Assembly: GCA_000310025.1 (NCBI GenBank)
Contig: FN648454.1
Span: 157,126-221,125, forward strand
Origin: Ectocarpus siliculosus
Taxonomy: Eukaryota > Sar > Phaeophyceae > Ectocarpales > Ectocarpaceae
Reading direction: 5' to 3'
DNA length: 64,000 nt
Shown here: in pieces, positions 16,205 to 64,000 of the stretch
How the letters are laid out: the number at the start of each line of letters is the position of its first letter
Numbering within the stretch: position 1 is the first letter of the stretch
Made by a program: the position numbers and the translations under genes
Notes under the pieces: model-generated
Told to the model about the DNA's origin: nothing
Databases searched by the model: none
Seen by the model: only the letters and a program-made list of their open reading frames with translations

Positions 16205-16232
16205 AGCGCGCGCGCGTGAGAGAGAGAGAGAG
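16142..16232. repeat. (AG)n microsatellite with (CG)n interruption
   Basis: About 53 bases of pure AG repeat are followed by a short gcgcgcgcg stretch and more GA repeat up to about 16,232. Confidence 0.95.
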
Positions 16233-19512: not shown

Positions 19513-19612
19513 NNNNNNNNNNNNNNNNNNNNNNNNNNNNNNNNNNNNNNNNNNNNNNNNNNNNNNNNNNNNNNNNNNNNNNNNNNNNNNNNNNNNNNNN
19601 NNNNNNNNNNNN
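19513..19612. other. Assembly gap (100 N)
   Basis: Exactly 100 N bases within the minisatellite, so the true array length is unknown. Confidence 0.99.
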
Positions 19613-20579
19613 TGATGATCGTCGGTTTCGAATTGTGATGATGGCACTCGCCATATGCTGTGACTATGGTTCCCGTCTTCATATGTCACGATGGCTCTCG
19701 TGTTGAATTGTGATGATGGTCCTTGGTTTCAATTGTGACCATGATCCTCGGATTTAGTTGTGACAATGGTTCTCGGTTTCAACTGTGATGATGGTCGTCG
19801 TCTTCAGTTGTGACGATGGTCCTCGGTTTTTATGGTGAGGATGGTCCCCGGTTTCAATCCGGTGCCCTTGGTTTGAAGTGTGACGATGGTCCTCGAAAAT
19901 ATTTGTGACGATTGTCTGCGGTATTTTTTGTGACGATGGTCCTCGTCTTCAGTTGTGACCATTGTCCTCGTTTTCAACTGTCACGATACACCTCGCCTTG
20001 AATGGTGATGGTGGTCCTCGGTTTCAATGGTGACGATGGTGCTTGGCTTCAAGTGTGACGGCGGTCCTCGTCTTCAATTCTGACGGTGGTCCTCTGTTTT
20101 TATGGTGATGATGGTCCTCGGTTTGAATCTGGTGCCCTTCGCATGAATTGTAACGATGGTCCTCGGTTACAATTGTGACGATGGGCCTAGGCTTCAATTG
20201 TGACGATGGTCCTCGGCTTCAATTGTGACGATGGTTCTCGTCTTCAATTGTGATGATAGTCCTCGGTTTCAATATGGGGCCCTTCGTTTCAATTGTTACG
20301 ACGGTTCTCGGTGTGAATTGTGATGATGGTCCTCGTCTTCAAATGTCACGATGGCCCTCTGAAATGGTTATGAAGGTCCTCGGTTTCGATCGTGATGATG
20401 GTTCTCGTCTTCAATTGTGATGACGGTCCTTGAGTTCAACTGTAAAGATGGTCCTTGGATATACTGGTGATAATGGTCCTCGGATTCAATCTGGTGCCCT
20501 TCGTTGGAAATATGACGATGGTCCTCGCAAATATATATGACAATGGTCCTCGTCTTGAATTGTGACGATGGTCCTCGGT

Positions 20580-20930
20580 TTCAATGTCGACGATGGCCCT
20601 CGGTTTCAATCTGGTGCCCTTCGTTTCAATTGTGACGATGGTCCTCGGCTTCAGTTATGACGATGGTCCTCGGGAAGAATTATGATGATGGCCCTCGTCT
20701 TGAATTGTGAGATGGTCCTCGGTTTCAATGTCGACGATGGTCATCGGTTTCAATCTGGTGCCCTTCGTTTCAATTGTGACGATGGTCCTCGGCTTCAGTT
20801 ATGACGATGGTCCTTGGGAATAATTATGATGATGGCCCTCGTCTTGAATTGTGACGATGGTCCTCGGTTTCAATGTCGACGATGGTCATCGGTTTCAATC
20901 TGGTGCCCTTCGATTCAATTGTGACGATGG
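20580..20930. repeat. 145-base higher-order repeat within the minisatellite
   Basis: The landmark caatgtcgacgatgg recurs at 20,582, 20,726 and 20,871, that is 144 and 145 bases apart. Between landmarks the same order of units appears: the 45-base variant, then four 25-base units. The 144-base spacing is explained by one missing base near 20,708. This block looks recently amplified compared with the rest of the array. Confidence 0.85.
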
Positions 20931-21973
20931 CCCTCGTCTTCAATTATGACGATGGTTCTCGTCTTCAATTGTGACGATGGTTCCCGGTTTGAATTTTGAC
21001 GATGGTCCTAGGCTTCAAATGTGACGATGGTCCTCGTCTTCAATTGTGACGATGGTCCTCAGTTTCAATGTCGACGATGGTCCTCGGTTTCAATCTGGTG
21101 CCCTTCGATTCAATTGTGACGATGGTCCTCGGCTTCAATGATGACGATGGTCCTCGGGAATAATTGATGATGGCCCTCGTCTTGACGATGGTCCTCGGCT
21201 TCAATGATGACGATGGTCCTCGGGAATAATTGTGATAATGGCCCTCGTCTTGACGATGGTCCTCGGTTTAAATCTGGCGCCCTTCGATTCAATTGTGACG
21301 ATGATTCTCGTCTTCAACTGTGATGATGGTCCTTGGGTTCAACTGTCACGATGGTTCTCGTCTTCAAATGTGACGATGGTCCTCGTCTTGAATTGTGACT
21401 GCGGTCATCGGTTTCAAACGTGATGAACGTCCTCGGTTTCAATTGTGATTATGGGTCTCTGGTTTGAATTGTGATGATGGTCCTCGTCTTCAATATCACG
21501 ATTGTCCGCGGTTTCAAATGTGATGAAGGTCCTCTTCTTGAATTGTGACTGCGGTCCTCGCATTCAAATGTGATGAACGTCCTCGGTTTCAATTTTGACG
21601 ATGGTTCTCGGTTTGAGTTGGGATGATGGTCCTCGTCTTCAATTGTCACGATGACCCTCGGTTTCAAATATGATGAAGGTCCTCGGTTTCAATTTTGACG
21701 GTGGTCCTCGGCTTAATTGTGACGATGGTCCTCGGCTTCAACTGTGACGATTGTTCTCGGTCTGAATTATGAAGATGGTCCTCGTCTTCAATGATGGCCC
21801 CTCTGTTGAAATGGTGATGATGGTCCTCGGTTTCAACCTGGTGCCCTTCGTTTTAATTGTGACTATGGTCCTAGGGTATAATTGTGATGGCCGCTCTCGT
21901 CTTGAACTGTGACGATGGTCCGCGGTTATAATCGTGGCGATGGTTCTCATCTTCAATTGTGATGATGGTCCTA

Positions 21974-44418: not shown

Positions 44419-45295
44419 ATGGCTACGCGTGCGGCCAAACTCGTTCTAGAGCGTCCGACCTCCCGTGAACAACAGGCTAGGGGGCATGAGCCCTGCTGTA
44501 AAGAGACGGTGGCGTGTGCGGGGTCGATACACGAGGCTGTGCGGCGTGGCCACCAGACAATCGTTGCAGACATGCTAGAAATGAACGTTTGCGGACAGCC
44601 AAGATGCAGGTGGCTCCACCGCTCTCCACATTGCCGCCGGCGTAGCGAAGTTGGGATGCATGGTGGAACTGTTCTCCTGTAGGGAGCTGTGCTCGAGATG
44701 CAGGACGGTACAGAGCGCCGAGCTGTTCACGTTGCAGCCCAATCGGGTCACGTCGGCGTGACTGCGGCTCTGGTGGCTGCTGGAGGTGACGTTGGCGCTC
44801 ACTACGGCGCCTACAGCCTGTCAACCCTGAAAATGGCCGCCCGCAATGGCCGTGCAGGATTGTGCCCCCGTTGATTTAGCGCGGGGTGAATGTGAAAACG
44901 AGGAGGGCTCCACACCCGTACATCAGGCCGTTCATGGAGGTTCCGCACCGGCCATCGATATGCTCGCCAAGGCAGGAGCGAACATCGAAAAAAGGAATGT
45001 CAACGGGGCGACACCACTTCATGCCGCTATGCAGTGCTACCTCGAAGTTGCTCTCCCTCTGTTGAGGCATGGCGCTGAAGTGATTACTGCCACCACAGAA
45101 ATCCTGGCCCCTCTGCATCTCGCGGCTGGGTTTGCTGGAAGTGAGCGTGCAGCGGAGATAGTAGATCTTCTCTTGAGGTGGGGTACTGACGAAGGTGTGC
45201 CTGACGACGAAGGCCGCAAAGCCGGGGACTTTGTTTGGGTGGACGCTCGCTGCGGATGGATTGGACAAGGTGTCCAGGACACTCAGCCAGCATAA
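44419..45295 (+). pseudogene. Ankyrin-repeat protein gene, frameshifted
   Basis: About seven ankyrin-like units are recognisable in order, spread over different frames: S-I-H-E-A-V-R-R-G-H; G-G-S-T-A-L-H-I-A-A-G; R-A-V-H-V-A-A-Q-S-G-H; a weak unit with L-K-M-A-A-R-N-G-R; G-S-T-P-V-H-Q-A-V-H-G-G; G-A-T-P-L-H-A-A-M; and A-P-L-H-L-A-A-G-F. The last three are in one frame (44,846-45,295) and end at a TAA. Frame changes occur near 44,590, 44,680 and 44,860. Ankyrin proteins bind other proteins, but no partner can be named. Introns could explain one change, yet no good splice sites lie at the breaks, so I favour a pseudogene. Confidence 0.75.
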
Positions 45296-46259: not shown

Positions 46260-47138
46260 TATTCAGCGAATACAAGAAGAGCGAATTCATGCCCAAGCAA
46301 AGATACACAAACCCGATGTTCATGACAAAAACGAGCTCGAGGCCGAAGGCCTCACCTCCGGAGTGTAGCCCCATGCATTCCTCCTCTCGATTTCAAAACA
46401 ACTGCGCCCAAGGACCCATGTCCCACTGCATGACCAAGCTGATCACAAACCACGGGAAACGTCACGTGCGAGCTGAAATGCAAATATAACTTGTAGTCCT
46501 AGTAGCCTGAGACTATGGACAGCACCCAACAGCTTCGACAAAAGCAAGCGTCACACGGGAGATCGACTCCCCGAGCTTGAACGGAAGCAAAAATGAATCA
46601 TTCTTGAAACCGGAAAAAAGAGGCTGTTCCATGAGGGAATGAAGATCATCCCGGACTAAGGGAAACACCACAATGGGCACATGTCGATGGTGAAATTATA
46701 CAGGACCACCTGCACACAGCAGATGCGAGCAAGCAAGCTTCACACGAGAAACCCTCCGAGTTATTACGGAAAATATGTCATTCTTGAAAGATGAACAAAC
46801 AAGTGTTTCATGAGGGGAAGGAACGAATAACATATCCCAGCACAAGGGCAACATCACCACAGGCACACGTCGATGACGGTGCCTCAAAAAGAAACGAAAA
46901 CTGACACGCAACCACTTTGAGCTCAACAATAGGCAGGTTACGTACTGTGAAGACAGATCAAACAGACCAGACAAGACGTATCACACAACGCTCCCCGCAA
47001 GAACCGAGAGAGTCCACACGGTTACGACAAGGGTTGCAACACAGCGCTGAACGCACGCTGGAAATCAGGCCACGCTACCACCACTACCAACACATGAAAA
47101 CAAGGGCAACGAAGGAACAGCACAGGTCCAAACCCCGT

Positions 47139-48136
47139 CTAGCGTGTAGGCGGGTTGGTGACACTGCTGTAGGCGTCATCCTCTTCCATGCCGACGTCCC
47201 CCTCGTCGCCGTCATCGTCGGCCTCCTTCCGGTCCACCACGGCGCCGTCGCCGGCCGTGTCCGTGTCGTTTTCCCCGGCGTCCCCAGTGGTCACAGTACG
47301 GTCGCTTGCGGCATCGCTGCCGTCGCTACGGTCGCTGTCGGTGCAGCTGTCGCTGATGCTGCTGCCGGTGGTGCTTCCATGGCTGTCAAATGGCTCCGCT
47401 GACTCGTCGTTGTTCTCGAATCCCTGTTAAGCTGAGACAATATCAAGAATCCGCTGTAACAGTACCCGTTGTCAGCTCTAGGAGAGGTGGGTGGTACTCC
47501 TTTTTTGCTCGCCTTGAAAATTTGGCCATTTGGGGCGGAACTACCGGAGGACAGATGCTTTCTGAAACTCTTGGGACTATCGCTTGCCTGTACCGGTCAG
47601 TGTGTTCGTATTGTCGAAATATTTTATTGACGTCTCTGCTCTACATGGACGTTCGTGCTACGCGGTGTGACTAGGTAGGCTTTCGGCTTCGGTCCAATTC
47701 AAATTTCCATGTACCAGTCGATGGTGCTGGACTAGGAGGTCTGTCGGTGAATGGGCGTTTGCTTTTTTTCACCATTGCAAGTTTTGACGGTCCTAGGGGC
47801 ACGAAAACCCTCTCTCAAACCCAGGCCATCACGAGCGCGCCAACCAACAACAACAAAAATATCATCAAAAAGAGGAAGAACAATGACCAAGTAGCCGTAA
47901 GCTCCACCCCTCGCAAAGATGCAAAGAGTTCGTGAAACGAAACTTACGCTACAGAGCATGTGAGATACCGTTGGCCCCACCAACTCACCATGCCATCGCA
48001 GCTGCAGAGGGTGGATAACTGCTGTGTCACTCTGCGTTGTGCACTCCGCAAGCAACCACACATCTTTGGTCAGCTTCGACACGATGGCGCCAGCCACCAT
48101 TCGCAGTTCCTTGAATCGAGCGGTATGATATGCCAT
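47139..48136 (-). CDS. Acidic-tail hypothetical protein gene, copy B (better preserved)
   Basis: The first exon (48,136-47,989) starts at an ATG shared with copy A, reads M-A-Y-H-T-A-R-F-K-E-L-R and ends at a GTGAGTTGG donor in phase 1. The last exon (47,423-47,139) follows a TTAACAG acceptor, begins G-F-E-N-N-D-E-S-A-E, becomes strongly Ser/Asp/Glu-rich (S-D-G-S-D-A-A-S, then D-D-D-G-D-E-G-D-V) and ends N-P-P-T-R at a TAG. It is 95 codons including the stop, in a single frame. The phases of these two exons do not join directly, so at least one middle exon is missing from the model; a conserved frame with G-V-P-P-T-S-P near 47,490 is a candidate. No domain is recognised. The tail resembles those of chromatin or RNA-associated proteins, which is only a compositional hint. 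Confidence 0.5.
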
Positions 48137-48654: not shown

Positions 48655-48731
48655 GCCAAGCCATCCCGGTCAATCATTGCCCAAGCCATCCCGGTCGATC
48701 ATCGCCCAAGCCATCCCGGTCGACCATGCTG
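48655..48731. repeat. 25-base triplication inside the terminal exon of copy B
   Basis: The unit gccaagccatcccggtc-atcat is present three times in a row, once in copy A. It shifts the frame of the terminal exon after D-G-L-G-D-D. Confidence 0.88.
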
Positions 48732-49779
48732 ACGCGACATGGTATGCCGAGGTCGGAATCCTCTTCACTCGAGACAACTACCCCCGCTTGCGAGATCATG
48801 TCCTCGTAGAGAGAGGATAGGTCCAGAGACAAGGAATCCAGAGACATGAGGTGCGCGGCAACGTCCTCGAAAGCCGTCAGGGTCCCATTCGCCTGCATCA
48901 AAAGCGAGCCAATCGAGAGACTGGAGTGGGGTGGGAATACCGAGTAGCTCTGTCGATGGCTCTAGGAGGACCGGGCTGCGCTTATCATAGTGTGCTTTCA
49001 GCACCTACTACTGACTGACAGGTGCGTCAAAGGTGTACCCCGCCCCTCGACGAAGTATACAGGTGCCATCGAGTCTCACCATCCCCCGCCCCACCGGCAC
49101 CACACCAACACGCCCTTCGCCATCGCCAGAACTACATTTGAAGAGCCAAAAAAGTGCTGCAGTGACGGCAAAATCGAGGAACGGGATTGATTTCCGTCTC
49201 CCCCTCGCCCGGAGTTCGCAAACCCGTGGTGCCGTTTACTTGTTCCGCAAACAGCGCGAAAATACATACCACCAGCAGAGACGACACACACACAGGCGGC
49301 GGTGCCGGTTTTATGTATCACTCCCGGGCACACGTCGGTTGATCAGATGCTCACGTCGTTGTAGTACGTGATCAGGTCGTCCTCGCCCTCCTTCATTCTC
49401 TCTTGCGTCCTGACCTTGCGATTATTCGTCTCTATCTTCGCAGTCTCGCAGCTCGACACCTCCTTCACGAGGGTAGACGAGGTCGTCAACACCAGTCGTC
49501 CACGGCCTCCAAGTCGGATCTACAGTACAATGTGTGGCATTGGAGCAGCCGAAGTGTGTTCGGCGGGGGGGGGGAGGATGGCATGACTACAGAACCAAAA
49601 CTGGGCTACACAATTCGGTGAACAACAACCACAACCACCGTCACGATCCACAAGCATCGAACCTAACGGCAATCACCATTACCACGCCGACAAAAGCTTC
49701 TAATCCTGTGCTTCCCATTCGCAACCTTTTGCACACCAACACGCACCGGATCATGCCGTATCCCGCGTGCGATCCCCAG

Positions 49780-50090
49780 CGGTCATCGTCGTTGAACGCT
49801 GGCGTGGCGCCGAGCACCGCGTCCTATCGCGACGGTGGGCCAGGCTTTCCACGATCAACTCCTTCTCGGAGACGTCTTCGGCCAGAGCGAGGGCAACCGC
49901 GAGATGCAACNNNNNNNNNNNNNNNNNNNNNNNNNNNNNNNNNNNNNNNNNNNNNNNNNNNNNNNNNNNNNNNNNNNNNNNNNNNNNNNNNNNNNNNNNN
50001 NNNNNNNNNNTCGTGGAAAGCCTGGCCCACCGTCGCGAAGGACGCGGTGCTCGGCGCCACGCCAGCGTTCAACGACGAAGACCGCCGGGG
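49780..50090. repeat. Inverted repeat flanking an assembly gap
   Basis: Positions 49,780-49,854 and 50,011-50,088 are reverse complements with only a few differences. Both derive from exon e of the duplicated gene. Between them lie 56 known bases and the 100-N run, so the gap sits in the loop of a hairpin. Confidence 0.88.
49911..50010. other. Assembly gap (100 N)
   Basis: Exactly 100 N bases, located in the loop of an inverted repeat. Confidence 0.99.
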
Positions 50091-50229
50091 CTGGCAGGCC
50101 CCGCACGAGTCAGCGATCTGGAGAGCTTCATCCATCTACGTGGGTACATCGAGTGCCGGCGGTCGAGACAGTGCAGCGGAGTGAGGGAGAGTGGGTGAGA
50201 GATGGAGATTTTAAAAGGGTGGGCGTGCC

Positions 50230-50480
50230 GACGGTGTTCCTTCCTTCTATCCTTGTCTACGCCCAGGAGGCAATCGAGCTCGATCTCTCGGTGACGAGCC
50301 TCAGACTCCTCGAACAAATGTAGCACCTCGTTGTCAAGGCATCGACCATCCGCTTCGATGCGTCGACAGCGCGGTGCCAGTTCGAGGAGCCTGAGGCTCG
50401 GCACCGAGAGGTCGAGCTGGAGGGCCTACTGGACGTGGGCAAGGACAGGAGGAAGAAGCTCCAGGGAAGAGGGGGCGGCG
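50230..50480. repeat. Inverted duplication of exon-d sequence
   Basis: The minus strand (about 50,345-50,235) encodes F-E-E-S-E-A-R-H-R-E-I-E-L and the plus strand (about 50,355-50,470) encodes F-E-E-P-E-A-R-H-R-E-V-E-L. Both match exon d of copy A (R-H-R-E-M-E-L). The two halves meet near 50,350. Confidence 0.82.
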
Positions 50481-50717
50481 GCAGAAGTCACTGTTACTTA
50501 ACGCCTGCTGACACGACCTGTCACGCACCCTCCCCTTGCAACCGGCCATGCGCGATTGCTTTCCTCACCGGAATCGCCACCTCTGCCGGGGTGCTCTCCA
50601 CCAGGTCGCAGCGGTTGGCGATGGTGAAAAAACTGGACGCCTCCAGGTCGGAAACCGGTCGACGTGAGAACACGATACCCTCCTAGAAGGAAACTCTCTC
50701 GAAAGAAGGTGCAGGTA

Positions 50718-50807
50718 TCGAGGGACCGCGAATCTAGTCGGTTGAGCTGCTCGGTACACGATGTCGTGTACCGAGGAGCACAACCGACTAGACTCGCGGT
50801 TCCTCGA
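50718..50807. repeat. Near-perfect palindrome, 44-base arms, 2-base loop
   Basis: Positions 50,718-50,761 and 50,764-50,807 are reverse complements with four mismatches. It lies where copy A has its coiled-coil exon. Nearby minus-strand sequence (about 50,660-50,570) has an open frame with a GTGAGG donor, possibly a foreign exon. Confidence 0.92.
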
Positions 50808-52110
50808 CACATACTAAATTTCGAGGAAACGTCCTGTATCGTGTTGTGTCCACCCAAGCCATGTGGGAACCATAAGGCGGGTGTACAACAGGCAGCGAGG
50901 GTGAGTGGGAGAATGGGGTGAATGTTCGGGGGGTCCAGCAGGGGAGACATGTCGAAAGAACGCTTCGCGGTGCAGTCGCGAGGGATAAACAGCTCAGGAT
51001 ACAGAACAAACTGCGACTTCAGACACAACGTCGCTCCAACCTTTCGACGCATCGGGCACACTCAACCCGGCGGAACCTCAAGTTACATCGTCAACATACC
51101 TCACGGGATCTGCGCTGTTAGAACCGCTGAGCTCGGTCCCTCACTCTACAGCACACGGACCAAGGTCAACCACTCGAGCCGTTCTCGAGAACTGGAGGAG
51201 TGCCCCAGGGCTTTCCTGAACGCTAGTCCCTCGCTATGCTACACTGTAGTGTACATTAATCCACCAATCTAGCATATGGTAGGCGAGGTAGAACTTACCG
51301 CAGCATCCAGCGAAGTGGTCGAGACGTAGTCGACAACGGCGCCGGGAAGACTCCTGTCAAACAACATGAAAGGGGGAACGGGATGCAAGCAAGAAAGCAT
51401 GGACAAATGTTGTGAGACGCTGCATGTAAGGACCGATGGTTCTCCAGTTGTACGTGTGAGAATCGAGACCTGCACACACAAGGCAATGGCCCGTGGCACC
51501 ATCTCACGTCGGAATACGGACCGCAATTCTAAACGTTTGCGGGAAGGACTCGCCACAATACACGAACAATCATTCAAAGCCTTACTTGGGGGTGCTACAC
51601 TGAGAAATAAAAAAAGAAACGGCGGGAGGGTGTTTTTGTAGAAATGCACCTGTTCCACAGCCCCATGGCCGAGAGACCCAGACATGCAGGAAGCACTCCA
51701 AAAACTGGCCTATGGAAACTCTAAGTCCACCTCTTTCCGGGGGATGAATGACTACTGGGTACAACCTCACACCATATTTCATCATTGTAAAGGCAATAAC
51801 AAGCATCACACACATGACAGAAGACGAGCAGCGTCTGCACACATCCCTCACGTAAAGAACGCGAAAATCTTCTCTTGCTGGTCCTGTTTGGCGACAACCG
51901 TCGTCGCCCTGTCAATGGCGAAGGAGCGGAAGCCCTTCGTGGTGGCCTCCTCCACGAGCTCACGGACAGTGTCGACGTCGCCAGAGGGGGATCTCTTCAT
52001 CGCCTCCGCCAGCTTCTTCCTGAAGCGCTCCTCAATGAGGCAATGTGGACCGAACGAGGGGGAGATTTCGTTTTTAGTCCAGTGTCACAGAAGCGGCGAC
52101 AACAACAATG

Positions 52111-52435
52111 CACCGTTTTTGCGGGACTTTCGTTGGGGGAGGGGGTCCGTTTCTTAGCCCAAAATAATATTTGGGCTTCTTGTTCGGAGGAAACTGCTAT
52201 TCCTAGAGCCCAATTGTCACTGGCCGAATATTTCCTACAATAATAGTATTCCAGCTGGCGAATTGCAAAATGGGCCCATTTTCTCACAGGATTGGTTGAC
52301 ACTTTCCAGCTTGGAAATGGGGAGGATCACACCCCGACCGTTCCAGAATGACGAACACACGTCACCTTTGTTTCGTTGTCGCTGTGTCAACTCCCCCTCT
52401 CTCGTTCGGTCGGTCAACTGTGTATGCCTTGCCTT
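52111..52435. other. Spacer between duplication copy B and the exon-a palindrome
   Basis: I see no gene here; only short frames are present. Confidence 0.4.
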
Positions 52436-52931
52436 CTTGTTCAGGACGAGAAGCCCTTCAGGAAGAAGCTGGCGGAGGCGATGAAGAGATGCCCCTCTGG
52501 TGACGTCGACACTGTCCGTGAGCTAGTGGAGGAGGCCGCCACAAAGGACTTCCGCTCCGTCGCCATTGACGAGGCGGCGATGGTTGCTGCGAAACAGCGA
52601 CCAGCAAGAGAAGGTCTTCGCCTTCCACCCTCCCCCCCCGGGTCTCCCACAATCCCTACAGTATTGCTAAACCGCCCATGGGCGCCCATGGGCGGTTTAG
52701 CAATACTGTAGGGACCTGGGGGGGAGGTGGAAGCGAAGACCTTCTCCAAGTCTTGTTTGACGACAAACGTCGCCGCCTCGTCGATGGCGATGGAGCGGAA
52801 GCCCTTAGTGTCGGCCTCCTCCACAAGCTCGCGGATAGTGTCGACGTCACCAGAGGGGCATCTCTTCATCGCCTCCGCCAGCTTCTTCCTGAAGCACTTC
52901 TCGTCCTGAACAAGAAGCACAGTGGACCGAA
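52436..52931. repeat. Palindrome containing two head-to-head copies of exon a
   Basis: The plus strand (about 52,441-52,620) and minus strand (about 52,920-52,745) both encode the PSG exon, starting D-E-K and F-R-K-K-L-A-E-A-M-K, each behind a TTCAG acceptor. The centre is a perfect 60-base palindrome (52,654-52,713) around gggcgccc. The arms are imperfect further out. With the exon at 52,030-51,852 this gives three copies within 1.1 kb. Confidence 0.92.
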
Positions 52932-53057
52932 CGAGGGGGGGAGTTCTCTTTTAGCCAAACGTCACAGAAGCAGCAACAATGAAAGTATGACGTGTGCATG
53001 CTACACTCGTCGATGCTCCTGACGGCGTAGTCGCCCTTCCTTCTTGAAGAACAGCAT

Positions 53058-53266
53058 GGTCGCCCCGGGGGGGCATCTCTGCTCCCACTCCACCGGCGAG
53101 CAGGACGGGTCTGCGCGGAGGTCCGCTTGGTTCTTGAACGCAAGCGAAGATATTCGTCGACGCTATCGGAGAGCCAGCTTGGCTTGCATTCAAGCAACAA
53201 GGGGACCTCCGGACAGACCAGTCCTGCTCGCCGATAGAGTGTGAGCAGAGATGCCCCCCGAACACA
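53058..53266. repeat. Head-to-head inverted pair of the WL-F-QQ / EWE-RCPP motif, second locus
   Basis: The minus strand (53,138-53,058) encodes F-K-N-Q-A-D-L-R and later P-V-E-W-E-Q-R-C-P-P. The plus strand (53,189-53,266) encodes A-W-L-A-F-K-Q-Q-G-D-L-R and later P-I-E-C-E-Q-R-C-P-P. The motif starts are 51 bases apart here and 52 at the 24.5 kb locus. The minus copy lies upstream of the exon-a copies in transcript order, so it may be an earlier exon of the same gene family. Confidence 0.8.
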
Positions 53267-53484
53267 AATCTAATCATGCGGCTGGCCAAACATTTTCGAG
53301 GAGCTCTTGAGTTCTCCGAAAAAGATGAATTTGTTGTGTCATACTAAGAAAATATACTCCTACCGTAGACTGACTGGGGAGGGGGGGGGGGGTTCTTGGT
53401 TGGAAAAACTACCTGCAGTATGCACCCGTCCCTTTTGGAGCTCTGAGGGGCGACGGTGGTTCAAACAGGGGAGGGGGAGTCTTC
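53267..53484. other. Boundary sequence before the giant palindrome
   Basis: Holds a 12-base G run near 53,382 and no gene. Whether the palindrome extends into it cannot be tested, because the partner arm runs off the window. Confidence 0.5.
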
Positions 53485-54211
53485 AGCTCGAAAATAGTAA
53501 AGGCCGCCCGCAGCTGGTGCTTCTCTGAACTCGTTCGTTCGTGTTGCTTTTTGAGGCAACTATCAGCACGTGATGTGTGACCAGACAAACTAGCAGGAGG
53601 GCACAGGTTCGCACACTAGATATTACCCTCGCACTCATGTATAGAGTGAGGTGCACTGCATGCATCGTCGATGGTGGTGTCTAGGAACGAGCGTGTGTGT
53701 TGTGATGTGCCTCTCTCTTTCCCACAGACCGCGTCCGCTGCAAACAGAAAAACAACAAGCAAGCTATGAACCGAGACCCATAACAAAACGTTTTCTCCTC
53801 TCGCTTCCTCCGCCCATGATAGCTCACAGCAGCAGTAGTATAGGGCACACCCTGCTCCCGTCTCGCTCTCGCTGTGGTGTGTACCCCCCTCCCCCCTTGT
53901 CCATATCTGGCTCCGGGTGGAGGTGTCTTGCGTGAGCCTACAGGCGTCTCTGGTTCCAATGATAAACGACGCCTCATCTCGGCATTGCACGGGGCCAGAC
54001 ACTTTCTTCCCTGCTCCAATCAAGTTCGGCACAATTGTGCTCTGCTATCTCGAGGCACCGACCACGGGTTGAAAAGGTAGCATATGGGTCAGCTCGGGCA
54101 AAGTGCTACAGCAGTACTTGTTGGGGCAATAGCGCAGTATTGCAATTTGGTGTTTAGGTGGTGAAATGGGCTTCCAGTCTGCTTGGGTTTTTTATGGACC
54201 TTGTTGTCACA

Positions 54212-54231
54212 GACAGACAGACAAACAAACG

Positions 54232-54300
<69 letters not shown>

Positions 54301-54322
54301 ACAGGCAGGCAGACAGGTAGGC

Positions 54323-54355
<33 letters not shown>

Positions 54356-54431
54356 GGCAGACAGACAGACGGACAAGCAGACAGGCAACCAGGCAGGCAG
54401 GCAGGCAGGCAGAAAGACAGAAAGACAGACA
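54212..54431. repeat. (ACAG)n/(GCAG)n tetranucleotide repeat, left arm
   Basis: About 220 bases of acag and ggca units. The right-arm partner (63,187-63,280) is only about 95 bases, so the two alleles of the palindrome have diverged in length. Confidence 0.97.
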
Positions 54432-55267
54432 CGCATGTCAATTTCCTTACGCCCGTTTGCTGATTGTTTTGTTTGCGCGCACATGTACATGCGATCCCTC
54501 TAAACAGCATGTTTTTGCAAAACAACAATCACACGTGAGGGCTGCCGCTCTGAAAAATATTGAAAACATATTTAGAGCTCCAACTTGAGAGCTCCGAAAT
54601 ATATTTGTAGTTTCCCAGCCGCGTGTGTTGTTCATGTTTGACAGTATATTGCCCGACAGCACACGCACGTTGGACAAAATCAGGTGTTTTCGGCCAATTG
54701 TTTGCATTCAGTTCTCTTCAAACTCGTTCGATAGCCAGGTGTGCGTGGTTGCATTATTAGGATCGACCGCGCTGACTGGCTGACTATTATAATGAAAAGC
54801 CGTCAGTGCCAGCGGGAAAAATCAAGGTCCCCGGAAGGGGGCCGATATTCGAAAAATGGGCAATGCGCTAAATACGCAATGCCAATACGACTCTCTCTAC
54901 ATATTCTTATCTCATCTCAGCAACACGAATGTCCTCGCTCGAACCTAGGAAGCCAATGATGCACAGAGCGGAGGACACCAAAAGGGTGGTTCATTCAAGC
55001 CCAGTGATTCCATGTCGTCCTCATTACGGCGAGTCACTATTTCACAGCTTGGTGTTGCAGTATGATCTTGGGCGGTGAGGAGTTCATCCGCAATATATGT
55101 CCAGCATGGAGGTTGTTCCCTCATTGATTGGCTATGCCTGCTATACCAATGCGTACGCGGGGGTGAAAACAACTTCTACTGTAGACTGTAGTACACCGTA
55201 CACCCGCCCGCGACGTATTTGCAAATGCTGGAACACATCACACAGGTATCAAACATGAGGCAATGGG

Positions 55268-55744
55268 ATGCAATTTCAGACGTTTCTCGGGCTTTCCGCC
55301 ACCACAGTCAGTCGTTCTATGACCAATCGATATGACAGTCGACAAAGACCATATCAGCATGCTACCCGGCTGCGGAAAGATGTTGATCGAAGAGCGATGG
55401 ACACAGAAACAATCATTGACGTCGAAGTAAACTACACTGCAGGGCAGTGCAGCTCGCCGTCCGATAACTTGTCTCCAAAACGCACGAACGAACGGTGGTC
55501 GATCGGATTCTATCGCAGCACGCACTACGCGAAAGGGTTCGTTGGATGTGTCCGGCCCCAAGACCTGTCTGGCACACCGGTGGCAATCTGCCGGAAGATT
55601 CACTCGAGTGTGACTCTCTGTGGGACAATCGAACGGGCCAACTTCAAGCACAATGTTTTTCGAGCTGAAGAAGACATGGCTATCTATTTTTTGGGTCGAT
55701 TTTGTTTGTTGAAAGCCATGAGTTTGAGAACTGCGTCGACGTAG
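55268..55744 (+). CDS. Candidate coding frame in the palindrome (unknown)
   Basis: An open frame of 158 codons begins with a helix-turn-helix-like string, F-L-G-L-S-A-T-T-V-S-R-S, then a charged region and a Lys/Arg-rich middle. The copies at 58.9 kb and on the minus strand near 62.2 kb contain indels that break this frame. The L-G-L-S-x-T-T-V-S-R pattern is common in DNA-binding segments of transposases and regulators, but no catalytic domain follows. The last third (after 55,660) is outside the repeated segment, so the frame may be a chance fusion. Confidence 0.25.
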   Translation: MQFQTFLGLSATTVSRSMTNRYDSRQRPYQHATRLRKDVDRRAMDTETIIDVEVNYTAGQCSSPSDNLSPKRTNERWSIGFYRSTHYAKGFVGCVRPQDLSGTPVAICRKIHSSVTLCGTIERANFKHNVFRAEEDMAIYFLGRFCLLKAMSLRTAST

Positions 55745-56942
55745 GCTGTTGTGTTGCGATGCGCACGAACGAACGTGGTGTTTATGGTCTGTGGTACATG
55801 CGTTTTTTATTTGTCAAGGATATGTTTCGCATAGTCTAGGACTTCACCGCGCCCAATGGTGCAGTTGATGTTGTTGGGTCACTGCTAGCGCTGCCGTCGA
55901 AAATCATGGGGGGGGATGAATGTGATGCTGAGATGCCATGATCTTCGTCGCAGTACAAGCAGAGTTCTAGCGGACGTTCGGGTTTGATTGTTCATTTTGT
56001 TCACGTTTTCCGCGTTTTACCTGCGGAAAATGAGGAGAAGTCCTCAATTCTTGTTTGTTTGCGATTCCGCGTTTACCTGCGGAGTTTGAGGCAACTTCAT
56101 GATACTTGTCTGATTCCTCGTTGCTAGGATAAGAAATACATTTCTTGTTTATTCGCGATTCCGCGTTTTTCCCGCGGAGTTCGGAGATAACTTCATGATA
56201 TTCGTTTGATTTCTCGTTGTTTGGATCGGAGAGTTGTTGCAGCAGGGGGGCTGTTAAGCTGTTGTGTTTTGGGAGATGATGCATCAGGGGGGCTGCTAAG
56301 CTTTTGTGTTTTGGGAGATACTGCAGCAGGGGGGTCTGTTAAGAAATCCATGCCTCGATGTTTGAGAAACGGCATAATTGGCGAAAGTTACCTTTGGCGT
56401 CTTCGAACGCCGGGTTTTTAACGTTTGTTTGTCTATTTGTGCCGCATGTATTTGGTATTGATGAATGTTCTGAACGATGTATTGGAGGAAGGATTTGACA
56501 TATTTTGGTAAGACATGGTTGAGGCCTATGTGCTTCCGAAGCTTATTTCAAATTGGTCAATGAGCTGAAACACAGTTTTGTGCGAGGATTTCGTTCGAGG
56601 TATTTGTTGACGCGTTTTGCCAGAGTTGTCCGTCCAGAGTCTTTATGACGTGGCTCTGATGTAATGTTGATCTTTGCTGAGTAATCTTCCAAGGATAATT
56701 CTTTGTGTTTGACTACTTGAGAATGTGGTGACGACATTTTCTCGAGAGGGGTGCTTGTTAAGACTCTTAGTGAAGTTCCATAGTCATAAGGAGGAGTAGT
56801 AACCTGAAATTTGAATATTCGATAGATCCGGGAGTTGAGATGATTTATTTGTGGATACGAAAGATGAACGGTTTTTAGATTTGCTCTCGACAAGAGCCCG
56901 CGAGCGTGATAACATAGTACACGCGCCGACACCCCAAACATT
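55661..56942 (-). other. Left-arm-specific segment I1 with minus-strand frames
   Basis: This 1.28 kb has no partner in the right arm. On the minus strand, 56,941-56,543 is open for 132 codons, and 56,375-55,967 holds overlapping frames with in-frame repeats. One is a 42-base unit (P-P-A-A-V-S-P-K-T-Q-K-L-S-S and variants); the other is a longer unit containing E-S-N/D-x-Y-H-E-V. The base composition is AT-richer than its surroundings. It could be a piece of a gene carried in with the insertion; no domain is recognised. Confidence 0.4.
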
Positions 56943-57605
56943 CATGTTCGACAGTATATTGCCCGACAGCACACGTACGTTGGACAAAATCAGGTGTTTT
57001 CGACCAATTGTTTGCATTCAGTTCTCTTCAAACTCGTTCGATAGCCAGGTGTGCGTGGTTGTATTATTAGGATCGACCGCGCTGACTGGCTGACTATTAT
57101 AATGAAAAGCCGTCAGTGCCAGCGGGAAAAATCAAGGTCCCCGGAAGGGGGCCGATATTCGAAAAATGCGCAATGCGCTAAATACGCAATGCCAATACGA
57201 CTCTCTCTACATATTCTTATCTCATCTCAGCAACACGAATGTCCTCGCTAGAACCTAGGAAGCCACTGATGCACAGAGCGGAGGACACCAAAAGGGTGGT
57301 TCATTCAAGCCCAGCCAAAACCAGGATGTGTATGTTTGGGTTGCATGAGGAGATGTGATCGCATGTCGTCCCCATTAAGGCGAGCCACTACTTCATATAC
57401 TTCTCGTATTGCACAGCTTGGTGTTACAGTATGATCTTGGGCCGTGAGGAGCTCAGCCGTAATATGTGTCCAGCATGGAGGTTGTTCCCTCATTGATTGG
57501 CTATGCCTGCTATACCAATGCGTACGTGGGCGTGGAAACAACTTCTATTGTAGACTAGAGTACACCGTACACCCGCCCGCGACGTATTGGCAAATGCTGA
57601 AACAC
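56943..57605 (+). repeat. Second copy of arm segment X
   Basis: This matches 54,635-55,240 closely in the same orientation (acagtatattgcccgacagcacac..., then the cattattaggatcgacc-type block, ending near caaatgctgaaacacatca). A block of about 50 bases near 57,315-57,360 is absent from the first copy. Confidence 0.93.
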
Positions 57606-58894
57606 ATCATATGTACATAAATGATTTGGTCACTTTTCATGCCTCGGCATTTCTTTCTCTCGCCCCAGCCAATCTTTTTTCGCGGTTCCTTCTCAGGGGC
57701 ACGCAGGAGGCCCGTCGGAACATTAACGCCCGTGTCGGGAGCTCGGCAGACCTGCGTGGCGCGTGAAGTTAACCGTCAAAATTTGGAAAATTGGCTCCAA
57801 ACCCAGGGGACGCGTTCCACGACGGCAATGCCTCCCGAACCAATTACTGAAACCTCTCTGTTGCATCCCAGGAGATGTCTCCCCAGCAAGTTTAGGGAAC
57901 ACGGTCGCAAAAATTGTGGAATCATTTTGATGGTTCCTAGTCGGTGTAGCATCATAGCAGCCTTTGCACTGTGTGTCCATGCGTACGTTTCTATGTAACG
58001 TGGTACTTCACCCACAGCTTCGGGGCCGCTACTACTCTGCTTTGAACTCTCACCTCCGGTTTGCAATTGTTTTTGTGTGGAAGATACATGGTCACAGACC
58101 TATTCATAGTCCATGGTTGATTAGAGCACGTCATGCCAGTCACAGAATTTTTCGATCTTTTTACAGGAGAAAGTCCGATTCAACACGAGCTCAAACCGCA
58201 AAACCTGACAGGTAGAAACGTGCCGATTACTGAATTTAGCGGATATTTTCTTCACAGGTCAGTCAAACCTCCGATTTTGTCCTGAAGGGTGCGGGCCATC
58301 GCTGACGGGCCATCACTGCGCCAGCTGCACGCCCCCTGCACGGATGGATACGCCACAGCAACAACACTTATTCATACGTCACGGCGCAGTGTATGCATGT
58401 GCATCAGTACCCCTTCCCGGGCTGGTCATGTGCAGAACAATGTGTCTCTTCAACACGAAAAAAGAAAAAATCTGTTCCAAGAGCAAAAATCTGCCGTGGC
58501 ATGCAAATACTCGGCTGCCCGCACTCACTCTCGCGATGGATCTCCTCGCATCTACTCCTTCTAGACCCTCCCTCCCATCACAAATCACAGCTCACACCGC
58601 CAGACAGAGCAGCTTTCACCCTCTTTCTCTCCCTCCGTCAATACACCGTACATCCATGCCTCGCCAACGCCGCCAAGCCTCCAGCGCCGCTGCCAACGCA
58701 TCGTTCCCCTTCCACCTAAATAAATGGTTTTCGTGTTGCCACATCCGTCCCATGGTACATGCGATGTTTTGTACGGGGGCGAGCACTACTGAACTTTTTA
58801 ATTTAATCCATGACTTCACTTCCTTTCCTACTTGCACCACCCCCGGGGGGCCTGACACCAACGTCCCGAAGGGGCACCTTGTACATGTATAATA
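57606..58894. other. Left-arm-specific segment I2
   Basis: This 1.29 kb separates the second X copy from the second Y copy. A plus-strand frame of 182 codons (58,344-58,892) is Ser/Pro/His-rich without a domain. The edges carry atgtacata and tgtacatgtata, a weak inverted resemblance only. Confidence 0.4.
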
Positions 58895-59285
58895 CATGAG
58901 GCAATGGGATGGAATTCCAGACGTTTCTCGGGCTTTCCGACACCACAGTCAGTCGTTCTATGACCAATCGATATTACACCATATCAGCATGCATACCCGG
59001 CTGCGGAAAGAGGTTGATCGAAGAGCGATGGACACAGAAACAATCATTGACGTCGAAGTAAACTATATGCAGGGCAGTGCAGCTCGCCGTCCGATAACTT
59101 ATCTCCAAAACGCACGAACGAACGGTGGTCGATCGGATTCTATCGCAGCTCGCACTACGCGAAAGGGTTCGTTGGATGTGTCCAGCCCCAAGACCTGTCT
59201 GGCACACCGGTGGCAATCTGCCGGAAGATTCACTCGAGTATGGCTCTCTGTGGGACAATCGAACGGGCCAACTCCAAGCACAATG
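58895..59285 (+). repeat. Second copy of arm segment Y
   Basis: This matches 55,253-55,660 but lacks the gacagtcgacaaag stretch that the first copy shares with the right arm. The first copy is therefore the true palindrome partner and this one a paralog. Confidence 0.9.
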
Positions 59286-60597
59286 TTTCAAAGAGCGCAC
59301 AGGTTGGTCATCATACTTGACACATTCATTTCCTGGGTTCCGCTGAACCACGCGCCTACAGTACACAAGCACCACAATGGTGTACAGTCTCTCCACCCCT
59401 TTCAGTTCTCCATATTTCTCTTTGCGTGCTTGCTGTGTCTGAGCGTGAACGCCCATTGCTGAACCGTTTTCATCACGGCGCTGCCAATGACCGAGGCACG
59501 CTAGATGGTAGATACCCTGGCCAGGGCTGCTGTTGTTGCTGTCGATGTGATAGCGTTCGCGTCGAGAAAGGAATTGGTTTTTTTTATGTTTCCAACGTAG
59601 GATAACTTGCTCACACGACGACCCGATGGTATTCCGCTGAGGCTGTCCCTATATATGCTTGGGGCATCCACAACACAACGGTGGCAAGCGAGGCAGTCGT
59701 TATCCGGTCAGCATCAAGCAAAGAGGAGACAAACCAAAAAATACTCGGGCACACAAGTCGGCACACACGCATCATATGCATACATACCATGCATATGCGC
59801 ATGCATACGAACAAGAAACAAATGCATATGCCATTTTTTCCTGCTGTCGGTTGAATGGCTCACCGGTTGGCGATGACGGACGGACAGGCTTCTCTAGAAC
59901 CATGTGGCAAGGAGTGAGAAGAGATGTGGGACTACTGTACCACGTCTCCACAGGGAAGATGCTTCCGGCGTCTTACCCTCCCGGAGAGTGCACATGGCTT
60001 CTTCATCCTCGTCATTTTTGCCCCTGTTGCCTGACGTTGGTGCGGGTATGGCAGATAGATGCATGACGGATTGGGTTGTGCGGGCATGTGCGGGAGGGTG
60101 GAATCATTCGCGGATAAATTATTCCGACGATGCGGAGGAACTTCACATACACTTCCAGAGAATAATCAAAAGTCTGTCGATTGGATATGTAGACGATGAT
60201 GTCAGGACGGACATCACACTAAGGACCAATAAATTCCGACGGTTGCACCCTACATGTCGCCACACGCCCATCAACTATGTATGGTACGGGGATAATTTCG
60301 GCTGCACCATTTTTCCAGTTTGTATCAGTCAAGTTCAGGTCCTCTCACGAAAGAAAGTGCACCAGGTTGCTTGCGGCGGGACGCCGGCCGATTGATTGAG
60401 TGTTTCTTCAGCGGCCTTCCTCCCTCTACGTGCGTCTCTCGCCAATGCATGGACGACACACATACCATATCGAATGAACTACGCAAGCGTATCACGAGTC
60501 CGAGATGGCTGGCAAGGCATAGAGTTCTTGTGGCGTGGGGTGGGCTACACTAGTACTACTGGTTTCGAGCATGAATCAATACGATACATCATTTATT

Positions 60598-60613
60598 TCT
60601 GGTGGTGGATAGT
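60598..60613. other. Spacer at the palindrome centre
   Basis: Sixteen bases (tctggtggtggatagt) separate catttatt on the left from aataaatg on the right. Arm complementarity begins immediately on both sides. Confidence 0.9.
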
Positions 60614-61791
60614 AATAAATGATGAATCGGATTGATTCACGCTCGAAGCCAGTATAGGTATAGTACTATGCGTAGCTCACAACTCTGTGCCTTGCCAGCC
60701 ATCTCGGACTCGTGATACGCTTGCACAGTTCATTCGATACGGTATGTGTGTCGGCCATGCATTGGCGAGAGACGCACGCAGAGGGAAGGAGGCCGCCAAA
60801 TCGGCCGGCGTCCCGCCGCAAGCAACCTGGTGGATGCACTTTCTTTCGTGTGGCGACATGTATGGTTGGTGAAGCCGTCGGAATTTATTGGTCCTTAGTG
60901 TGATGTCCGTCCGTGACATCATCGCCTACATATCCAATCGACGGACTTTCGATTATCGCTGGAAGTGTATGTGAAGTTCCTCCGCATCGTCGGAATAATC
61001 AATCCTCGAATGATCCCCACCTTCCCGCACATACCCGCACGACCCAATCCGTCATGCATCAATCATACCCGCACCCTCCCAGGGGCCCAGTCAACAGGGG
61101 CAAAAATGACGAGGCAAGAAGAAACCGCCCTCCGGGAGGGTAAGACGCCGGAAGCGCCTTCCCTATGGAGTCGTGGTACAGTAGTCCCACATCTCTTCTC
61201 GTTCCTTGCCATGGTCCTAGAGAAGCCTGTCCGTCAGTGCCAACCGGTGAGCCATTCGACCGACAGCAGGAAAAAATGGCGTACTATACATTTGGTTCTT
61301 GGCGTACGCATGCATGCGTGTGTGCCGACGTGTGTGCCCGAGTATTATTTTCCGGTTTTGCCTCCTCTTCGTTTGATGCTGACCGGATAACGACTGCCTC
61401 GCTTGCCACCGTTGTGTTGTGGATGCACCAAGCATATATAGGGACAGCCTCAGCGGAATACCATCGGGTCGTCGTGTGAGCAAGTTATCCTACGTTGGAA
61501 ACAAAAAAAAAAACATTTCCTTTCTCGACGCGAACGCTATCACATCGACAGCAACAACAGCAGCCCTGGCCAGGGCATCTACCATCTAGCGTGCCTCGGT
61601 CATTGGCAGCGCCGTGATGAAAACGGTTCAGCAATGGGCGTTCACGCTCAGACACAGCAAGCACGCAAAGAGAAATATGGAGAACTGAAAGGGGTGGAGA
61701 GACTGTACACCATTGTGGTGCTTGTGTACTGTAGGCGCGTGGTTCAGCGGAACCCAGGAAATGAATGTGTCAAGTGTGATGACCAACCTGT

Positions 61792-61922
61792 TGTTGTTGT
61801 TGTTGTTGTTGTCTTCACATTAAAAACCGTTCCGATCTCTCTCTACCCAGTACCTTCGTTATGTCCGTACTGATCCAACACTCGACGCGGTCGATTCCCG
61901 TGGTCACAGGTTAACTTACCCT
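61792..61922 (-). mobile_element. Short retroposon-like insertion in the right arm
   Basis: The left arm has an uninterrupted cacaggttggtcatc at 59,307. In the right arm this is split by 131 bases flanked by a 7-base direct repeat (aacctgt at 61,785-61,791 and 61,923-61,929). On the minus strand the insert ends in (ACA)n, a tail typical of some short retroposons. No coding capacity. No second copy was noticed in the window. Confidence 0.65.
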
Positions 61923-63186
61923 AACCTGTGCGCTCTTTGAAACATTGTAAAATAAAAAATAAAAAAACATTGTGCTTGAAGTTGGCCCGTTCGATTGTCC
62001 TACAGAGAGTCACGAGTGAATCTTCCGGCAGATTGCCACCGGCGGTGTGCCAGACAGGTCTTGGGGCCGGACACATCCAACGAACCCTTTCGCGTAGTGC
62101 GTGCTGCGATAGAATCCGATCGACCACCGTTCGTTCGTGCGTTTTGGAAATAAGTTATCGGACGGCGAGCTGCACTGCCCTGCAGTATCGTTTACTTCAA
62201 CGTCAATGATTGTTTCTTGCGTCCATCACTCTTCGACCAACCTCTTTCCGCAGCCGGGTAGCATGCTGATATGGTCTTTGTCGACTGTCATATCGATTGG
62301 TCATAGAACGACTGACTGTGGCGGCGGAAAGCCCGAGAAACGTCTGAAATTCCATCCCATTGCCTCATGTTTGATACCTGTGTGATGTGTTCCAGCATTT
62401 GCAAATACGTCGCGGGCGGGTGTACGGTGTACTGCAGTCTACAATAGAAGTTGTTTTCACGCCCACGTACGCATTGGTATAGCAGGCATAGCCAATCAAT
62501 GAGGGAACAACCTCCATGCTGGACATATTACGGCTGAACTCCTCACGGCCCAAGATCTTACTGCAACACCAAGCTGTGAAATAGTGACTCGCCGTAATGA
62601 GGACGACATGGAATCACTGGGCTTGAATGAACCCTTTTGGTGTCCTCTGCTCTGTGCATCAGTGGCTTCCTAGGTTCTAGCGAGGACATTCGTGTTGCTG
62701 AGATGAGATAAGAATATGTAGAGAGAGTCGTATTGGCATTGCGTATTTAGCGCATTGCGCATTTTTCGAATATCGGCCCCCTTCCGGGGACCTTGATTTT
62801 TCCCGCTGGCACTGTCGGCTTTTCAGCATAATAGTCAGCCAGTCATCGCGGTCGATCCTAATAATACAACCACGCATACCTGGCTATCGAACGAGTTTGA
62901 AGAGAACTGAATGCAAACAATTGGCCGAAAACACCCGATTTTGTCCAACGTGCGTGTGCTGTCGGCCAATATACTGTCGAACATGAACAACACACGCGGC
63001 TGGGAAACTACAAATATATTTCGGAGCTCTCAAGTTGGAGCTCTAAATATGTTTTCAATATTTTTCAGAGCGGCAGCCCTCACGTGTGATTATTGTTTTG
63101 CAAAAACATGCTGTTTAGAGGGATCGCATGTACATGTGCGCGCAAACAAAACAATCAGCAAACGGGCGTAAGGAATTTGACATGCG

Positions 63187-63280
63187 TGTCTGTCTTTCTG
63201 TCTGTCTGCCTGCCTGCCTGCCTGCCTGCCTGTCTGTCTGTCTGTCTGTCTGTCCGTTTATCTGTCTGTCTGTCTGTGAC
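63187..63280. repeat. (CTGT)n/(CTGC)n tetranucleotide repeat, right arm
   Basis: This is the complement of the longer left-arm repeat at 54,212-54,431, flanked by the same unique sequence in inverted order. Confidence 0.95.
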
Positions 63281-64000
63281 AACAAGGTCCATAAAAAAAC
63301 CAAGCAGACTGGAAACCCATTTCACCACCTAAACACCAAATTGCAATATTGCGCTATTGCCCCAACAAGTACTGCTGTAGCACTTTGTCCGAGCTGACCC
63401 ATATGCTACCTTTTCAACCCGTGGTCGGTGCCTCGAGATAGCAGAGCACAATTGTGCCGAACTTGATTGGAGCAGGGAAGAAAGTGTCTGGCCCCGTGCA
63501 ATGCCGAGATGAGGCGTCGTTTATCATTGGAACCAGAGACACCCGTTGGCTCACGCAAGACACCTCCACCCAGAGCCAGATTTGGACAAGGGGGGAGGGA
63601 GGTACACACCACAGCGAGAGCGAGACGGGAGCAGGGTGTGCCCTAAACTACTGCTGCTGTGAGCTATCATGGGCGGAGGAAGCGAGAGGAGAAAACGTTT
63701 TGTTATGGGTCTCGGTTCATAGCTTGCTTGTTGTTTTTCTGTTTGCAGCGGACGCGGTCTGTGGGAAAGAGAGAGGCACATCACAACACACACGCTCGTT
63801 CCTAGACACCACCATCGACGTGCATGCAGTACAACTCACTCTATACATGAGTGCGAGGGTAATATCTAGTGTACGAACCTGTGCCCTCCTGCTAGTTTGT
63901 CTGGTCACACATCACGTGCTGATAGTTGCCTCAAAAAGCAACACGAACGAACGAGTTCAGAGCAGCACCAGCTGCGGGCGGCCTTTACTATTTTCGAGCT

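Follow-up and report, generated by a model that had tools for sequence, protein, structure and literature searches.

A large palindrome with almost no spacer at the end of an Ectocarpus siliculosus contig, probably an old fold-back inverted duplication

Relation to described palindromes and overall architecture

Palindromes of sex chromosomes (the Y type) have gene-carrying arms that are under gene conversion and more than 99.9% alike. The palindrome at the end of contig C72 of Ectocarpus siliculosus resembles them in having inverted arms on one chromosome, but its distal arms are 97.6% alike, almost no spacer separates them, and neither arm has a Pfam match in six frames of positions 49001-63999, by which a known protein domain in the arms was ruled out; an RNA gene or tRNA was likewise rejected. 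Three features recall the inverted duplications and triplications formed by origin-dependent inverted-repeat amplification (ODIRA) or fold-back in yeast and human: inverted copies separated by little sequence, a direct-inverted-direct triplication of small size (at 51857-52979) and, in one paralog (L041), a minimal inverted repeat where the sequence flips. The portion of PMC10766186 consulted gives ODIRA junctions as ~5-nt repeats separated by 40-80 nt, unlike the C72 spacer of 16 (or 10) nt and the CTGC/GCAG pair 4 nt apart in one paralog only; no ~5-nt inverted repeats 40-80 nt apart occur at the junction, and the third, direct copy of an inverted triplication would lie beyond the contig end. 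The same portion calls palindromes of kilobase size that nearly lack a spacer unstable, and states that natural genomes rarely contain them. Adjacent reverse-complement arms around a short spacer place the locus with interrupted long quasi-palindromes and fragile inverted repeats, as far as these are covered in parts of PMC10766186 and PMC7999016, with which it shares kilobase arms, a short spacer, mismatched arms and a central indel excess, while differing in being natural, apparently old and brown-algal, with separate repeat insertions in its arms. The phenomenon is already known in kind, and the C72 palindrome is a new instance of it.

Self-BLAST of the window (the whole 64-kb stretch of DNA that was analysed) places the meeting of the arms at 60,597/60,614 (Table 1), and the Ns of the window lie at 19513-19612 and 49911-50010, none of them within the main palindrome. 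The arms pair as 53485-54299 with 64000-63187 (96.6%), 54337-55660 with 63277-61963 (95.5%) and 59299-60266 with 61791-60847 (89%), far above chance (BLAST E of 1e-93 or less, down to 0), and 60346-60850 is self-symmetric at 78% identity in the reverse-complement self-comparison; arm-to-arm identity drops toward the centre and is not uniform. A sequence-only reading had described complementary arms running outward from these points around a 16-base spacer, and both claims are borne out by the gapless sequence, with a fold offering an alternative spacer of 10 bases by CT/AG pairing across a T-T mismatch. Its figure of over 10 kb holds for the total span and not for the arms, of which ~3.0 kb each (2996 columns) can be aligned. 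The matches do extend to the window edge, as it had stated, and position 64,000 is also the end of contig C72 (221,125 bases), which means that the assembly itself, and not merely the window, cuts the right arm short; the left limit, 53485, is simply the point matching that cut.

Table 1. Coordinates of the palindrome, its arm-specific features and neighbouring palindromes (window positions)
Feature	Position	Strand	Basis and remarks
Left arm of inverted duplication, 7.1 kb, ~3.6 kb left-only	53485..60597	+	Self-BLAST; from 54020 to 60607 colinear with C11 paralog L041
Spacer TCTGGTGGTGGATAGT	60598..60613		Sequence and four-way alignment; length recomputed as 16
Right arm, ≥3.4 kb, truncated at contig end	60614..64000	-	Self-BLAST, contig end
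Centre-proximal zone of raised divergence, both arms	59720..61370		39 mismatches in 636 aligned columns, 15 merged indel events; outer limit chosen after data were seen
ACAG microsatellite, left arm	54209..54431		TRF, 55.8 units
Unit A, left-arm-only tandem duplication	54631..55660	+	Self-comparison
Unit B, left-arm-only tandem duplication, split by 57610-58882	56941..59288	+	Self-comparison
Left-arm-only insert, dispersed repeat family member	55661..56940	+	Seven best matches elsewhere 94-95%
Left-arm-only insert, second dispersed repeat family	57610..58882	+	Matches elsewhere up to 92%
Right-arm-only ~135-bp SINE-like repeat, (CAA)n tail	61789..61925	-	Genome matches and junctions
Inverted pair centred in 100-N assembly gap 49911-50010	49765..50099		Self-comparison and C11 paralog
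Palindrome, 9-base spacer (gapped alignment)	50240..50455		Self-comparison and paralogs; C298 has one arm only
Palindrome, 2-base spacer	50715..50810		Self-comparison; no other copy among matches listed (best 40 of 108 candidates)
Second palindrome, zero spacer, innermost ~29 bases perfectly paired	52433..52917		Self-comparison; single-copy in paralogs read
Palindrome, 80%, spacer estimate 36	53068..53259		C11 and C27 matches ~one arm long by their listed lengths

Arm-specific insertions and the integrity of the assembly

The left arm is the longer because it contains a tandem duplication (54631-55240 matching 56941-57609, and 55242-55658 matching 58883-59288) and two dispersed-repeat inserts; inspection of the junctions of the insert at 57610-58882 found no clear target duplication. 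The right-arm counterpart of the ACAG microsatellite is a TGTC run of 22.8 units at 63187-63277 (TRF). The SINE-like insert of the right arm has at least 23 matches at 99% and one at 97% among those listed (best 40 of 2021 candidates); its flanks repeat ACAGGTT (7 bp at most, since ACA could instead belong to the tail), and the left arm holds the empty site. The differences in microsatellite length, indels and insertions that had been read from the sequence were therefore found again by TRF, alignment and junction comparison.

These differences bear on whether the second arm was created by the assembly or library, through a folded-back chimeric read or assembler reflection at a small hairpin. 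The right arm runs into the contig end, an assembly gap lies at the centre of another palindrome (49911-50010), and inverted duplicates are, according to the part of PMC7229812 consulted, difficult to sequence; a caution is that this assembly stops or leaves gaps at such palindromic structures. A folded read would duplicate a single molecule and so give arms identical save for sequencing error, but these arms differ by 2.4% substitutions, by a cleanly inserted repeat that has a target duplication, by a tandem duplication and by two dispersed-repeat inserts. The sequence-only reading had kept an artefact as an option against which the arm differences argued; those differences are confirmed, and on the sequence evidence an artefact is improbable.

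Private repeat insertions would equally be expected of two alleles (haplotypes) or two paralogous loci misjoined head to head, and some redundancy does exist in the assembly, as seen in the 99.6% overlap between contigs C226 and C298. That redundancy amounts to a difference of 0.4%, about six times less than between the arms, and a chance chimera would have had to join corresponding points within 16 bases. In addition, the matches listed or candidates scored in the genome searches (the best 40 of 2021 and 40 of 303, so that absence there is no proof) include no close copy beyond the two arms, and the sequence expected after the centre in a second unduplicated copy is on no contig but C11. There is accordingly little probability of a misjoin.

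Unduplicated paralogs and origin

A paralog on C11 (67-78%) is colinear with the left arm as far as the centre and then continues into different sequence. This locus, L041, has no Ns, and past the centre it shares a continuation of ~2.5 kb with a second C11 paralog, L042, at 84-86%. With 10 of 10 candidates scored, only C11 carries the continuation as a long stretch; in C72 and elsewhere it is matched by fragments of less than 250 bases at 66-77%. In a four-way alignment the first ~10 spacer bases align with the paralog sequence that runs on from the left arm. The C11 paralogs thus correspond to one arm with homology that crosses the centre; since they are unduplicated and continue beyond it, the inverted duplication is derived on C72, from a single-copy segment. 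Once the arms themselves and brief fragments of dispersed repeats are set aside, the outer arm is matched most closely at 73% on C11 (best 40 of 303 candidates).

The same homology bears on a transposable element with long terminal inverted repeats (a fold-back element), as might be suggested by a palindrome with little or no spacer in repeat-rich surroundings. Homology among the C11 copies does not stop at the position of the centre but passes on into other sequence, which makes the centre a breakpoint and not an element end; there is no Pfam match in the six frames searched, no other close palindromic copy appears among the genome-search matches listed, and dispersed palindromic copies with common ends were seen in those matches neither for the main palindrome nor for the smaller ones. 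Such an element is a very improbable source of the structure.

The palindrome is likely, on sequence grounds, to be a genuine old inverted duplication with almost no spacer, produced in a single event of fold-back synthesis in the C72 lineage, and the setting is best explained as a rearrangement-prone segmental-duplication family. That it is real and old, as the earlier reading had leaned in proposing fold-back replication or an old break-fusion event, is well supported by the one-arm dispersed-repeat insertion with target duplication and an empty site opposite, the 2.4% divergence and the unduplicated paralog. At a tiny inverted repeat, a broken or stalled strand may have folded onto itself, or else moved to the opposite template, with the adjoining segment copied backwards; the arms would later have diverged, the left gaining the tandem duplication and two dispersed-repeat inserts and the right one SINE-like insert, while the centre would keep gaining small deletions and insertions, probably via hairpin extrusion and repair. 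The anatomy of the arms, their private insertions, the unduplicated paralog and the excess of changes near the centre are observed; the snapping back of the strand and the role of hairpins in the indels are what we infer. L041 bears a CTGC-TGGT-GCAG mini-hairpin at the flip point, which is weak evidence because L042 lacks it there and such hairpins are common, 15-17% of L041/L042 positions lying within 3 bases of a comparable hairpin centre.

Divergence near the centre and neighbouring palindromes

The distal arms differ by 57 mismatches in 2360 columns (2.4% substitutions) with 6 indel events. By comparison, substitutions are ~2.5 times and indels 8 times as frequent in the ~0.9 kb next to the centre. 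A near-identical split gives 39/627 vs 59/2380 substitutions (Fisher p about 1e-5). The indel:substitution ratio is 0.38 in the centre-proximal zone vs 0.11 distally (p 0.015) and vs 0.13 between the two C11 paralogs (p 0.009). An apparently faster right arm was rejected, the first count of 38 vs 12 being a misalignment that became 20 vs 12 on realignment (p 0.22). Basecalling error, known for inverted duplicates from the part of PMC7229812 consulted, could account for part of the near-centre excess, and gene conversion of the outer arms could likewise produce a gradient. Under the latter the palindrome would be ancient, its outer arms homogenised and the centre alone showing its true age, a reading compatible with a fold-back origin; the step in substitutions from 1.7% (59299-59719) to 6.1% (59720-60597) fits it. 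Conversion alone does not predict indels rising 8-fold against 2.5-fold for substitutions, and a C11 palindrome has no such gradient, its lowest divergence being near the centre and its whole-arm indel:substitution ratio 0.22, so this history seems unlikely. Gene-carrying, near-identical arms of the Y type are not seen here. With a kilobase palindrome almost without spacer and its unduplicated paralog in one genome, erosion of the centre while the arms persist becomes visible.

Within 11 kb on its left side the main palindrome has four smaller neighbours, a density to be read knowing that the region was picked after it had been seen and that the comparison loci, fetched for other reasons, are non-random. 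The zero-spacer example belongs to the triplication, made up of 51857-52102 (+), 52448-52625 (-) and 52733-52979 (+). For the palindrome at 50240-50455 an ungapped spacer estimate of 82 missed the centre. The paralogous loci read for these two carry a single arm only, and at the place corresponding to the inverted pair around the assembly gap the C11 paralog has a 2-kb palindrome. No contig continuing the right arm emerged; among the best 40 of 108 candidates for the flanking 50.0-53.5 kb, the closest match is an inverted one at 94%, C298:5854-6970, which stops at 51,985. It is possible, though doubtful, that the segmental-duplication family (the C72 end, C11 1.6-2.15 Mb and C298/C226/C329) forms a hotspot in which palindromes arise repeatedly, with one-arm paralogs beside copies folded back at 5 or more different points; if so, a brown alga would offer a natural series that starts with a single arm, passes through a zero-spacer palindrome and ends in an eroded quasi-palindrome.

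A chromosome-end structure, also proposed earlier, finds no support: the 64-kb window has no run of at least three TTAGGG or TTTAGGG units, and the C11 paralog sits inside a 5.5-Mb contig. Genome-wide, TTAGGG gave 316 matches, those listed reaching contigs to C12 and so silent on C72. As for the sex-determining region, the MEMO match and one HMG-box match, genes we take to be markers of the Ectocarpus sex region, are both on contig C340; among the matches listed (1 for MEMO, 11 for HMG-box) none is on C72 or C11, which argues weakly against that setting and differs from palindromes in a sex-chromosome setting. An EsV-1-7 array was also noted and points to a brown alga.

Structure of the palindrome and reality of its arms

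Self-alignment supported the sequence-only reading of an inverted repeat with a 16-base spacer, placing its centre at 60,605.5, with no Ns inside the stretch. The main palindrome is best read as a genuine and old inverted duplication with a short spacer, of a known kind, its right side cut by the contig end, as the contig (C72, 221,125 bases; window, C72:157126-221125) stops at window position 64,000. With the microsatellite excluded, the aligned length is ~3.0 kb per arm (723 + 1216 + 421 + 636 columns), and most of what remains of the left arm consists of a tandem duplication and two dispersed-repeat inserts. Among the papers listed on palindromes in brown algae or Ectocarpus, none appeared from its title and opening abstract lines to report nuclear palindromes of this kind.

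Coordinates of the main palindrome, its parts and its neighbours in the window
Feature	Position	Partner or repeat	Remark
Left arm	53485-60597		self-alignment
Right arm	60614-64000		self-alignment; ends at contig end
Matching block	53485-54299	64000-63187	inverted
Matching block	54337-55660	63277-61963	inverted
Matching block	59299-60266	61791-60847	inverted
Inner matching block	60346-60850		self-symmetric
Left-arm tandem duplication	54631-55660	56941-59288	
Left-arm insert	55661-56940		dispersed repeat family; seven best matches elsewhere 94-95%
Left-arm insert	57610-58882		dispersed repeat family; matches elsewhere up to 92%
Neighbouring palindrome	50240-50455		ungapped spacer 82 (missed centre); 9 by gapped alignment
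Neighbouring palindrome	50715-50810		ungapped spacer 2
Neighbouring palindrome	52433-52917		ungapped spacer 0
Neighbouring palindrome	53068-53259		ungapped spacer 36

The earlier claim that differences between the arms oppose a simple artefact was upheld by a right-only insertion and by substitutions. A ~135-bp repeat at about 61789-61925 is present only in the right arm, flanked on both sides by ACAGGTT (in which ACA may be part of the repeat's (CAA)n tail); at the matching place the left arm has an empty site. Elsewhere, among the matches listed (best 40 of 2021 candidates), 23 are at 99% identity and one at 97%. Distally, 57 of 2360 aligned columns carry a substitution between the arms (2.4%; 15/723, 35/1216 and 7/421), and, the arms themselves aside, the outer arm's closest counterpart among the best 40 of 303 candidates is 73% identical, on contig C11, with dispersed-repeat pieces inside that arm matching elsewhere at 82-86%. 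Collectively, these traits do not fit a single locus read twice. Two alleles would fit, but the sole other redundancy met, C226:1-7000 against C298, is 99.6% identical. This 7-kb identity (C298:13130-20131, reverse orientation, starting from a contig end) is either redundant assembly or a recent duplication. Ectocarpus assemblies made from haploid material are described in PMC11541908 and PMC7386250; the present genome may be one of them.

Unduplicated relatives and the breakpoint

Two C11 loci are paralogous to the left arm. L041 (C11:2146001-2156000) matches 49073-49904 and then 54020-60607, colinear at 67-78%, and its match ends at the palindrome centre; that of L042 likewise ends at 60607. 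Past the centre, the two share a further ~2.5 kb at 84-86%. In a search of the genome (189 Mb, 492 contigs; 10 of 10 candidates scored), this continuation (L041:5330-7800) occurs at length on C11 only, its other matches on C72, C329, C298 and C226 being fragments of <250 bases at 66-70%; the C72 fragments are window 47041-47283 and one site left of the window, and two further short window fragments match at 67% and 77%. Because the continuation exists at length only on C11 and the paralog match stops at the centre, the alignments identify the centre as a breakpoint within a longer paralogous unit, with the duplication derived on C72. At the flip point L041 reads CTGC-TGGT-GCAG, a potential hairpin primer for fold-back synthesis; such hairpins are equally near for 15% of L041 and 17% of L042 positions, and this one is not present in L042. 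The palindrome is a rearrangement product for which no function is proposed: six-frame translation of 49001-63999 gave no Pfam domains, and the window held no Rfam matches at gathering score and no tRNA genes.

Divergence towards the centre

The arms are 2.1, 2.9 and 1.7% diverged across the distal blocks and 6.1% (39/636) over the ~0.9 kb nearest the centre (59720-60597), with 6 distal and 15 proximal merged indel events (~2.5 vs ~20 per kb), the boundary having been fixed after viewing binned divergence and poorly aligned columns excluded. A nearly identical split (59/2380 distal vs 39/627 proximal) gives p about 1e-5 for the excess of substitutions. The ratio of indels to substitutions reaches 0.38 in the proximal zone, compared with 0.11 in the distal blocks (p 0.015) and with 0.13 when four stretches are taken from a pair of C11 paralogs (23 indel events against 173 mismatches; p 0.009 vs proximal). 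We read the centre-proximal excess as hairpin-driven instability. Great age combined with gene conversion in the outer arms could contribute to the excess, as could residual basecalling error (PMC7229812). A 2-kb palindrome in L041 (L041:702-2674, C11:2146702-2148674; arms 84.6%) differs, with a ratio of 0.22 across whole arms and divergence lowest near the centre (2/93, 1/100), then 9/83 in the innermost bin. With L041 as outgroup, left and right arm-specific changes number 12 and 20 (746 columns; p 0.22); a faster right arm (12 vs 38 in an earlier count) was rejected as misalignment.

Neighbouring palindromes and window content

A census of symmetric palindromes (half-length at least 45 bp, identity at least 70%) returned five in 50011-64000, including the main one, and two in 1-49910. 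There were none in L009 and L010 (20 kb), two in eight related loci (L041, L042, L043, L048, L049, L053-L055; ~67 kb, ~7 kb of it near-duplicate, with an L054 palindrome at 66.9% excluded) and one in 12 dispersed-repeat loci (L019-L030, ~39 kb); L032, L034, L038 and L040 had none and overlap or adjoin other loci, so were uncounted. The density is thus 5 in 14 kb vs 5 in about 175 kb, for a region picked post hoc and non-random comparison loci. The 52433-52917 palindrome has a perfect inner stem and lies within a direct-inverted-direct triplication; its segments and those of 50240-50455 occur as one arm in the paralogs read, and C11 and C27 matches to 53068-53259 are about one arm long (best 40 of 108 candidates). 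The L041 palindrome sits between that locus's matches to 49.9 and 54.0 kb, overlapping slightly, and in the corresponding C72 interval an inverted pair is centred on a 100-N gap. The main palindrome's sequence family seems prone to fold back.

On C298, two paralogs of C72 50-52 kb in mutually inverted orientation (5862-8350 and 14931-16946) lie ~6.5 kb apart and are 69-79% alike, the first having 94% identity to C72 50873-51985. Eight of ten chosen window ORFs lacked a Pfam match; the others were an EsV-1-7 repeat array (25710-26822, PF19114, E 1.3e-161) and an ankyrin ORF (44831-45292). The former lies in a tandem array (25142-27509, offset ~114 bp) whose minus strand encodes the cysteine-rich EsV-1-7 repeats and whose plus strand is likewise open (520 codons). 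Repeats of this type point to a brown alga. A large imperfect tandem-repeat block (18137-21972, ~72-76% between offsets) contains a 100-N gap (19513-19612). Pieces of the 48.7-52 kb part recur at 6.5-10.5 kb as diverged direct duplicates (6514-7411 vs 48699-49588 and 9726-10493 vs 51243-52033; 79-80%).
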